Positions 31,997 through 33,938 of a stretch of DNA of 33,938 nt are shown here, piece by piece. The stretch lies in the IMG/VR virus record IMGVR_UViG_3300021389_000080, positions 1 through 33,938 of that record; one strand, 5' to 3'. This stretch comes from a virus. Position 1 is the first letter of the stretch. Every line of letters starts with the position of its first letter. A program made the position numbers and the translations under genes. The notes below the pieces were generated by a model. The model had not been told where the DNA came from. It saw nothing but the letters and a program-made list of their open reading frames with translations, and made no database searches.

Positions 31997-33466
31997 TTAT
32001 CTAAATTCTTCAAGTGTAGGGTCTCCACCGTCTTTATCATCAATAACAAAATCATTTTCTGCATTATGTACTAATATACCGTTAGCAAAATAAACATCTT
32101 CAGATTCTACGTCAATTGACCATGTTGAAAATGGTTGTGCAGTTTTTACCAACGATTTAGTGTTAACTAAAATCCATTGAGAATCTTCATTTAGCATAAA
32201 TTCTCCTACGTTTACGTCACTTGCCTTTTTCCAAGAAACCATATTATTGACATCTTTAATTAAAACAGGGTGTTCAAATGTTATTTTAAGAGAACCTTCA
32301 TTGAAATTATAATAAGAAGAATATGTGTCCACTGTGACATTAGTAACTTCTACTGATGTAAATTCACCTTCAAGATTATCTACATGAGAAGACCATTCTC
32401 TATATGCATCTTCAGAACCATCATAACCATTGATATCATAAGATAACAAGATATCACCTATTTGTATGTTTTCAATTGCTTTAGTTTCGCCATTTGCTAA
32501 TGTAATCATTTCACCAGCTACGTGACATCCGCCTCCGCCGCCTCCGCCGCCTCCGGTATACGAAGTAGTTGCTGTTGGAACTGGCGTTGGACTTAGTGTA
32601 GCAATAGGTGTTGCACTTAGTGTAGTAATAGGTGTTGGAGCCGGTGTTACAGGTATCGTAGGGAATGGCGTTGGCTCTATTACTAGTGATGTACCTTGTG
32701 ATAAAGTTACACCTAAAGTATATCTAATATTACTATTATCTGGGTGTGCAATAACAAGAGGTTCTAGAATAATACTTGTAGGGAATTTTGCTCCTCCGTT
32801 AAGACTAGTGATTATACAACTTCCTACTACATTTCCAAATATATTAGTACCGTATACAAATTGTACGCTATATCCGGAATCCTTAGATATTATAGTAGGT
32901 ACTTGATTGGTAGTTGTTGCCGTATCCGTGTAACTAAAGCTCTTAGTTACTGAAGACCCTGGCCCGTTATTAAAATCATCCAAAGTAACGCTCGTGACAT
33001 TAACACCGTTATCATTAATAACGACTGATAGAGTCGGTACTGGTGTTGCAGCTACTGTAGGCACTGGCGTTGCAGCTACTGTAGGCACTGGTGTTGGAGC
33101 CGCAGTAGGCACTGGTGTTGGAGCCGCAGTAGGCACTGGTGTTGGAGCTGCAGTAGGCACTGGTGTTGGAGCTGCAGTAGGCGCAGGCGTTGCAGTTGGA
33201 GCCGCAGTTGGAGCAGGTGTTGCAGTTGGTGTAATAACTGTATTACCAGCTTGAGTCACTTCAATAGTATCAATTGTACTTGTGTTAGCATGTCTAACAG
33301 TAAGCGTTGCGTTTCTGGCAACACCCGAATTAGGCGCCACTGTAATTGTCCAATCATCAGTAGTTCCCACCCTTACGATTGTAATCCAATCGGGTGGTGT
33401 ATCCCATGAATATGAAGTCCCTAAAGGTGTGATATTCACTGTTCTTATGTATTCGTTTGCTGCCAT
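31997..33466 (-). CDS. BACON-like, Pro/Thr-repeat adhesin with C-terminal Hint (intein-like) domain
   Basis: Domains in order: residues 1-75 BACON-like (WDTPPDWITIVRVG, then TIEVTQAGN), common in Bacteroidota carbohydrate-binding proteins; about 80-145 a Pro/Thr/Ala repeat with 8-residue unit; about 146-260 a beta domain; about 262-302 a second Pro/Thr stretch; 305-313 nine glycines; 314-468 a Hint domain; 469-489 an acidic tail. The Hint residues are present: C314 in GCHVAGEMITLANGETKAIE, T396 and H399 in TFEHP, and H467-N468 in ILVHN. The +1 residue is Ala (A469), not Cys/Ser/Thr, so cleavage is more likely than splicing. No endonuclease is inserted. It may be cut into a stalk and a short tail on the virion, or linked to another molecule. 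Confidence 0.85.
   Translation of the reverse strand: MAANEYIRTVNITPLGTSYSWDTPPDWITIVRVGTTDDWTITVAPNSGVARNATLTVRHANTSTIDTIEVTQAGNTVITPTATPAPTAAPTATPAPTAAPTPVPTAAPTPVPTAAPTPVPTAAPTPVPTVAATPVPTVAATPVPTLSVVINDNGVNVTSVTLDDFNNGPGSSVTKSFSYTDTATTTNQVPTIISKDSGYSVQFVYGTNIFGNVVGSCIITSLNGGAKFPTSIILEPLVIAHPDNSNIRYTLGVTLSQGTSLVIEPTPFPTIPVTPAPTPITTLSATPIATLSPTPVPTATTSYTGGGGGGGGGCHVAGEMITLANGETKAIENIQIGDILLSYDINGYDGSEDAYREWSSHVDNLEGEFTSVEVTNVTVDTYSSYYNFNEGSLKITFEHPVLIKDVNNMVSWKKASDVNVGEFMLNEDSQWILVNTKSLVKTAQPFSTWSIDVESEDVYFANGILVHNAENDFVIDDKDGGDPTLEEFR
33033..33230 (-). repeat. 24-bp tandem repeat coding for Pro/Thr/Ala units
   Basis: About eight units of 24 bp (8 codons, for example ACPTPVPT-type with Ala-Ala-Pro-Thr-Pro-Val-Pro-Thr), with one-base variants (gccgca/gctgca, ggtgtt/ggcgtt). 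Units are nearly identical at DNA level, so slippage or recombination could change copy number without frameshift. The same unit occurs at 33779-33938. Confidence 0.9.
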
Positions 33467-33505: not shown

Positions 33506-33937
33506 TTATGATGATGGGCTTCCTCCACCTGTACCACATAATTGAGAAGCAGTAGTACTACCACCCGAAGAACTTGTGATTAACCATGATATAGACCCGT
33601 TAGAATACCATCCGAATGGCATAAGACTATCCCATGTTGTTAAATTCATATCAGTCCAAAAGACTGAAGAAGTAGATAGTATAGCGTCATTACTCCATAA
33701 TGTATATTTTATAGATAATTCACCACATGCTGAACTGCTAGAACTGGAATTAAAACTTAATCTATGACTATAAGAAGTAACTGGTACTGGCGTTGCAGCT
33801 ACTGTAGGCACTGGCGTTGGAACTGGCGTTGCAGCTACTGTAGGCACTGGCGTTGCAGCTACTGTAGGCACTGGCGTTGGAACCGGTGTATATGCTACTG
33901 TAGGCACTAGCGTTGGAACTGGCGTTGCAGCTACTGT
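33506..33937 (-). CDS. Second Pro/Thr-repeat adhesin-like protein, 5' end beyond window
   Basis: The reading frame is open to the window edge, so only the last 143 codons or so are seen. The visible N-terminal part consists of TVAATPVPT-type repeats, the same as in the next gene. The C-terminal part (about 90 residues) is Ser/Thr-rich and beta-like (RLSFNSSSSSSACGELSIKY, then PFGWYSNGSISW), with two Cys that could pair, and ends in a Gly/Ser tail. No catalytic motif is visible. It is probably a fibre or capsid decoration protein. A GTG at 33905-33907 is in frame but repeats continue upstream, so the real start is further out. A 39-nt A/T-rich gap with two near-matches to TATAAATA separates it from the Hint gene. 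Confidence 0.7.
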   Translation of the reverse strand, partial: TVAATPVPTLVPTVAYTPVPTPVPTVAATPVPTVAATPVPTPVPTVAATPVPVTSYSHRLSFNSSSSSSACGELSIKYTLWSNDAILSTSSVFWTDMNLTTWDSLMPFGWYSNGSISWLITSSSGGSTTASQLCGTGGGSPSS

Positions 33938-33938
33938 A
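33779..33938 (-). repeat. 24-bp tandem repeat array, continues past window edge
   Basis: Units such as actggcgttgcagctactg plus taggc repeat about six times to the edge of the window, some shortened to 12 bp. They are the same family as the array at 33033-33230, which lies in the adjacent gene about 550 bp away. Confidence 0.88.

Follow-up and report, generated by a model that had tools for sequence, protein, structure and literature searches.

A phage fibre-type protein ending in a putative type A BIL domain, with a conserved lysine in the tail behind it

The gene at positions 31997-33466 of a virus record of 33,938 bases, analysed over its full length and called the window here, very probably encodes a fibre-type protein with a self-processing domain of the bacterial intein-like (BIL) type at its C-terminus. 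Both the assignment to the Hint type and the location of the domain are well supported. The lysine conserved in the short tail behind these domains suggests that, rather than splice or simply cut themselves out, they join the fibre covalently to a lysine. By analogy with BIL2 of Tetrahymena thermophila, and with a confidence that we would put at even, we propose a fibre or tail-appendage protein whose terminal type A BIL would pass the last glycine of the fibre to the tail lysine, the Hint domain then being freed.

The record combines a tail-tube gene with replication genes of the T4 type (UvsX-like recombinase, gp32-like single-strand binding protein, split DNA polymerase and ribonucleotide reductase). 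As the nearest cultured relative, found via a neighbouring protein of 687 aa, is the Flavobacterium phage MaF61, the host is probably a Bacteroidota bacterium. The Hint gene adjoins a collagen-type fibre gene, and the tail-tube gene lies nearby. A preliminary description had read the gene product as a BACON/Pro-Thr-repeat phage surface protein with a C-terminal Hint domain, and the open reading frame on the minus strand, the Pfam matches to BACON and PT-HINT and the tail-like gene context bear this out (Table 1).

Table 1. Features of the Hint gene and its upstream neighbour, in window coordinates
Feature	Position	Strand	Basis and remarks
Whole gene, 489 aa	31997..33466	(-)	BACON, Pro/Thr repeats, beta region, Pro/Thr repeats, Gly9, Hint, tail
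N-terminal BACON domain	33242..33466	(-)	Pfam, residues 23-73, E 3.9e-5; pLDDT 75-90 over residues 21-70
Pro/Thr (PTPVPTAA) repeats, about residues 76-156	32999..33241	(-)	Sequence; cassette boundary in or near the repeats (identity drop)
Middle beta-rich region, about residues 150-270	32657..33019	(-)	Alignment (absent in L014); low-confidence model, strands only
Nine glycines, residues 305-313	32528..32554	(-)	Sequence; N-flank, proposed thioester partner
Hint domain, residues 314-468	32063..32527	(-)	Pfam PT-HINT; AlphaFold2 model; top structure matches BIL2 and C. thermocellum BIL
C-terminal tail, residues 469-489 (AENDFVIDDKDGGDPTLEEFR)	32000..32062	(-)	Predicted disordered
Codon of Lys478, sole tail lysine	32033..32035	(-)	Tail survey; proposed acyl acceptor
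Upstream neighbour, C-terminal part of collagen-like fibre protein	33506..33938	(-)	Cut by window end; Gly-rich end, no Hint

The sequence of the open reading frame contains the features named in that description: nine glycines lead into Cys314, block B reads T396-F-E-H399, and the terminal H467-N468 is followed by A469, the +1 residue and first of the 21 residues of the tail. PT-HINT is the best Pfam model for the domain (residues 321-469, E 1.1e-5). PT-HINT and BACON lie slightly below the curated cut-off when the whole protein is scanned, while PT-HINT exceeds it both when the domain is scanned alone (29.1 vs 27.7 bits) and in the open frame. Searches with the protein gave no useful family in PHROGs and nothing significant in NCBIfam.

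The AlphaFold2 model of the Hint domain, computed from an alignment of 48 family members, reaches a mean pLDDT of 85 with core blocks mostly at 90-98, the glycine arm and the tail being predicted as disordered; the model of the N-terminal 313 residues is poor (mean pLDDT 55). In Foldseek the top matches were T. thermophila BIL2 (8.5e-11) and the Clostridium thermocellum BIL (2.3e-9), followed by inteins and Hedgehog (1.3e-5). The VIA aligner gave the same leading pair, with Z scores of 20.9 for BIL2 (rmsd 1.4 over 139), 18.8 for the C. thermocellum BIL, 18.1 for the Ssp DnaB intein and 17.5 for Hedgehog, and BIL2 was likewise top in a sequence search of the PDB. These matches to solved structures back the Hint fold assumed at the outset. 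With a predicted Hint fold, Cys at position 1 and TxxH in block B the domain belongs to the Hint superfamily as defined by fold and Cys/Ser1, and the C-terminal His-Asn and the lack of a conserved +1 nucleophile place it with the type A BILs. Class 1 inteins have Cys, Ser or Thr at +1, where Ala469 stands here, and are inserted between two halves that are rejoined, while only 21 residues follow in this protein and 2-36 in its relatives. A Hedgehog-type domain, which uses the N-S acyl shift only and has no His-Asn step, does not agree with the HN at 467-468, which is invariant in the family, and instead of the toxin domain that follows Hint in polymorphic toxins there is just the 21-aa tail.

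In total 80 members of the family were collected, mostly tail or fibre proteins of phages and prophages in which Hint is followed by only a short tail. They come from IMG/VR contigs, from Erwinia, Dickeya, Yersinia and Salmonella phages, from phage NCTB and from Flavobacterium and Tenacibaculum genomes, and are annotated as 'virion structural protein', 'tail fiber' or 'intein domain protein', in line with the proposed location on a phage fibre-type protein. Cultivable phages with the gene include Erwinia phages Y3 and Alexandra and Dickeya phage AD1, and L145-L153 represent a Flavobacterium prophage type. The domain stands at or near the C-terminus of BACON/Pro-Thr, collagen-like and Thr-repeat proteins and of a prophage tail protein; the prophage relatives have Gp10_C-like and fn3 domains, PHROG tail families and a holin gene in the locus. 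One relative (L059) has the N-terminal start of the upstream fibre neighbour, but carries Hint. In the alignment of 48 members C1, Gly-Asp, Thr/His-Pro, Tyr and His-Asn are invariant down to 24-25% identity, and across the family Cys1, TxxH and His-Asn are essentially so. Judged from the aligned sequences, this conservation across diverged relatives is far beyond chance.

Several further arrangements were seen. In phage NCTB a single tail module contains three Hint genes (L042, 224-7483), of which BN7874_135 (153 aa) encodes a nearly free-standing Hint with about 7 residues before the Cys and the tail KVD. The loci L235-L251 encode a tandem Hint pair: the first has no obvious C1 (ASGSLI...) and ends in HN-(I/L)PPK, once more with a lysine just past HN, directly before the second, which starts with CFVAGT or CCFVAGT. 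In three Bacteroidota genome proteins of about 330-355 aa (L171, L172, L173) Hint ends in ...NGVMVMQK or ...VLQK, so that His-Asn is replaced, but the final residue is lysine. A portal-like protein gene (L163) in the record of L137 shows a weak Hint match and is probably an ordinary intein; the Vibrio matches PS65A.1 and 13VV501A were set aside as ordinary helicase-type inteins.

The gene half with the Hint domain appears, from nucleotide comparisons, to be swapped as a unit between near-identical phages in the style of adhesin tips. Compared to the relative L139, identity is 54-73% over a stretch that begins in the Pro/Thr repeats and ends with the stop codon (window 31997-33166), whereas the flanking DNA is 90-99% identical and identity recovers immediately past the stop codon; the cassette thus has two boundaries, one within the Pro/Thr repeats and one at the gene end. 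L014, of the same group as L139, lacks the middle beta region too. In another relative, L142, identity does not fall in this way outside the repeats. The Pro/Thr repeats of the Hint gene recur in the upstream collagen-like gene (33506-33938), whose end is likewise Gly-rich, and the two genes may exchange sequence via these repeats.

At +1 the family has Val, Ala, Thr, Lys, Asn, Leu, Ser, Ile, Phe, Gln, Met, Gly, Tyr, Pro or Asp, and only 13 of the 73 distinct tails start with Cys, Ser or Thr. Since this position varies, whereas the residues at both cleavage sites stay constant, the survey rules out canonical class 1 splicing as the conserved function. Gly precedes C1 in 22 of 47 relatives. The preliminary description had expected the domain to cleave or transfer, not to splice. 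Its first half agrees with a +1 position that is free throughout the family, and cleavage or transfer is what the sequence would predict; its second half goes too far, since type A BILs, which have no nucleophile at +1, can still splice weakly by aminolysis (PMC4031507), and Ala at +1 is therefore no bar to splicing.

What the tails have in common is a lysine, which occurs in 72 of the 73 distinct tails (2-36 aa) and exactly once in 62. Tails with shuffled residues, composition and lengths being kept, carried lysine in 46.8 ± 2.8 cases, with a maximum of 58 in 50,000 shuffles. Lysine was present in every one of the first 54 distinct tails, whereas the C-termini of 218 other ORFs from these loci, taken at matching lengths, gave 29.5 ± 3.5 and at most 42 of 54 (5,000 draws); arginine was rarer in the tails than in this control (10 vs 18). 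Members fetched once the pattern had been noticed had it in 22 of 23 cases. Family members are related, hence not independent; when each cluster of Hint cores at <60, <50 and <40% identity was represented by a single tail, the signal was undiminished, as 33/34, 27/28 and 19/20 tails had lysine versus 21.4, 17.2 and 12.1 after shuffling (12.1 ± 1.5 at <40%), counts never reached in 50,000 shuffles. Stretches of equal length directly before C1 contain lysine in 3 of 47 cases, compared to 46 of 47 tails. Chance was rejected as an explanation in every comparison made, with residue shuffles, with the C-termini of other ORFs, with the N-flank and with random stretches of N-extein. Neither was the lysine selected by the searches, because the alignment-based patterns consisted of block B and the block F/G region and lay outside the tail, which was reachable by just some single-sequence scans of near relatives.

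The lysine is found between +1 and +10, and at +27 in two members, and this variable position does not imply a fixed catalytic geometry. Apart from it the tails share little sequence, the shortest being KF (L122), KH, VK and LK (L259). In the loci L176-L186, also fetched once the pattern was known, Hint is followed by a longer Fn3-like stretch, and Lys stands directly at +1 in 11 of 11. The one exception without a tail lysine is L201 (ITVTAPPGTTTQWVS), whose Hint otherwise looks intact. L040, with FTPFGF repeats similar to those of L201, has lost C1 and has HD in place of HN; both are natural controls. A residue count does not establish chemistry, and the lysine could fill another amine-dependent role.

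We propose that C314 would attack the Gly313-C314 bond, by which the C-terminal glycine of the fibre would be held as a thioester. As no nucleophile is present at +1, the side-chain amine of Lys478, in the same chain or in a neighbouring subunit, would then take the glycine and form an isopeptide bond, as is reported for BIL2 in a secondary account by its authors, while cyclisation of N468 would free the Hint domain. The fibre tip would thus become covalently closed, branched or cross-linked via a Gly-Lys isopeptide bond, on a protein that we infer to be present in the virion and to lose its Hint domain there. We consider transfer from Gly313 to Lys478 the most likely course because of the BIL2 precedent and the same order of N-flank, Hint and C-flank lysine. 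For the tail lysine as the acyl acceptor we would put the chances a little below even. The wider reading, in which the phage tail and fibre proteins of a widespread family each bring along an isopeptide ligase that needs no ATP, turns over once, acts onto a tail lysine and excises itself, is put forward tentatively; a terminal BIL-type Hint would then close or cross-link the fibre subunits at the tip and cut itself out. Among the roles considered earlier, release of a tip is unlikely because merely 2-36 residues lie beyond the domain, and between joining and release the near-invariant tail lysine, overlooked at that stage, favours joining.

An alternative is plain self-removal: Hint would cut at both ends, by thioester hydrolysis and Asn cyclisation, and serve as a disposable cap or as an aid to folding, after which the fibre would end in poly-Gly; the tail lysine would play a minor part. 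In its position, at or close to the C-terminus in all members, the domain resembles other disposable fibre C-termini, such as the S74-type chaperone domains. Type A BILs are also reported to yield mostly cleavage products (PMC4031507). We nevertheless consider it somewhat unlikely, because it leaves unexplained why 72 of 73 tails that are otherwise unrelated, even those as short as KF, KH, VK and LK, have a lysine, and offers no reason why arginine fails to replace it. Improbable in our view is splicing of the BIL type, in which Asn cyclisation would free the tail, whose new alpha-amine would attack the thioester, so that the fibre would end in Gly9-AENDFVIDDK... as a tag with the lysine as its working group. 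This matches the proposed splicing route of type A BILs (PMC4031507), and C1 and HN are both conserved and a tail is present in all members, but two-residue tails would make poor tags and the tail sequences have little in common beyond the lysine. The location at the fibre tip and the exchange of the Hint-bearing gene half as a cassette would suit capture of the thioester by an outside nucleophile, namely another virion protein or a host-surface amine, in the fashion of Hedgehog and with the tail lysine as decoy or regulator; no acceptor protein is visible, however, and nearly every member has a nearer acceptor in its tail lysine, which makes outside capture very improbable. That the domain is a functionless class 1 relic which lost its +1 nucleophile, as Ala at +1 here and Thr at +1 in the relative L005 might suggest, can hardly be right in view of active-site residues invariant over very diverged relatives, a +1 residue variable family-wide, members mostly without a C-extein domain to restore and the conserved tail lysine.

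If the lysine is the acceptor, phages would have evolved a self-contained way to form Gly-Lys bonds in their fibres that needs neither a separate enzyme nor ATP, a parallel to ubiquitin conjugation, to pili built by sortases and to the isopeptide bonds within adhesins. Members with tails of 2-10 residues would then represent very small lysine-accepting Hint systems, easily tested and potential tools for ligation. Proteins that are annotated as 'intein domain' in the tail modules of phages would gain a concrete role, and the chemistry of BILs, known so far from studies on a few proteins of bacteria and ciliates, would become testable in virions. In the open-access literature no phage-tail Hint with a lysine or isopeptide role was found, and papers on jumbo phages of the AD1/PaBG type discuss no Hint in tail genes.

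Among known systems, the inteins in terminase, RNR and helicase genes of phages (PMC3556154) share the Hint fold in phage genes, but they are inserted in enzymes and restore the host protein, unlike the terminal domains on tail proteins described here, which have no conserved +1 nucleophile. The PT-HINT domains of polymorphic toxins (PF07591) provide the best Pfam model, but a long C-terminal domain follows Hint there (for example in L166, L167, L169, L170 and L188) in place of a short tail. Hedgehog autoprocessing (1AT0) transfers the protein to cholesterol after an N-S acyl shift only (PMC7664689). Its Hint fold, its thioester at the N-side (putative in the phage protein) and its C-terminal position are shared, but it has no C-terminal His-Asn step, while HN is present here. 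The stretch behind Hint, where Hedgehog-type domains have a sterol-recognition region, is 21 residues long in the phage protein. Type A BILs have a C-terminal His-Asn and no +1 nucleophile, mostly cleave and in some cases splice weakly by aminolysis (PMC4031507). The one from C. thermocellum (PDB 2LWY) agrees with the phage domain in fold, C1, TxxH, His-Asn and the lack of a conserved +1 nucleophile; type A BILs are bacterial cleavage or splicing domains, however, while the phage family has a near-invariant tail lysine and stands C-terminally on tail proteins. Closest by both sequence and fold is BIL2 from the BUBL1 polyubiquitin locus of T. thermophila (PDB 6TMM, 6Y75; PMC8616854), which shares C1, the block B His and His-Asn and whose N-flank is reportedly joined to a lysine of the C-flank. 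The providers of the structures state that BIL2 splicing gives an isopeptide bond and speculate on how the nucleophilic lysine of ubl5, the C-flank, is placed at the N-terminal junction (PMC8616854). The ciliate domain lies between two ubiquitin-like domains, whereas the phage domain ends a fibre and has a tail of 2-36 aa as its C-flank.
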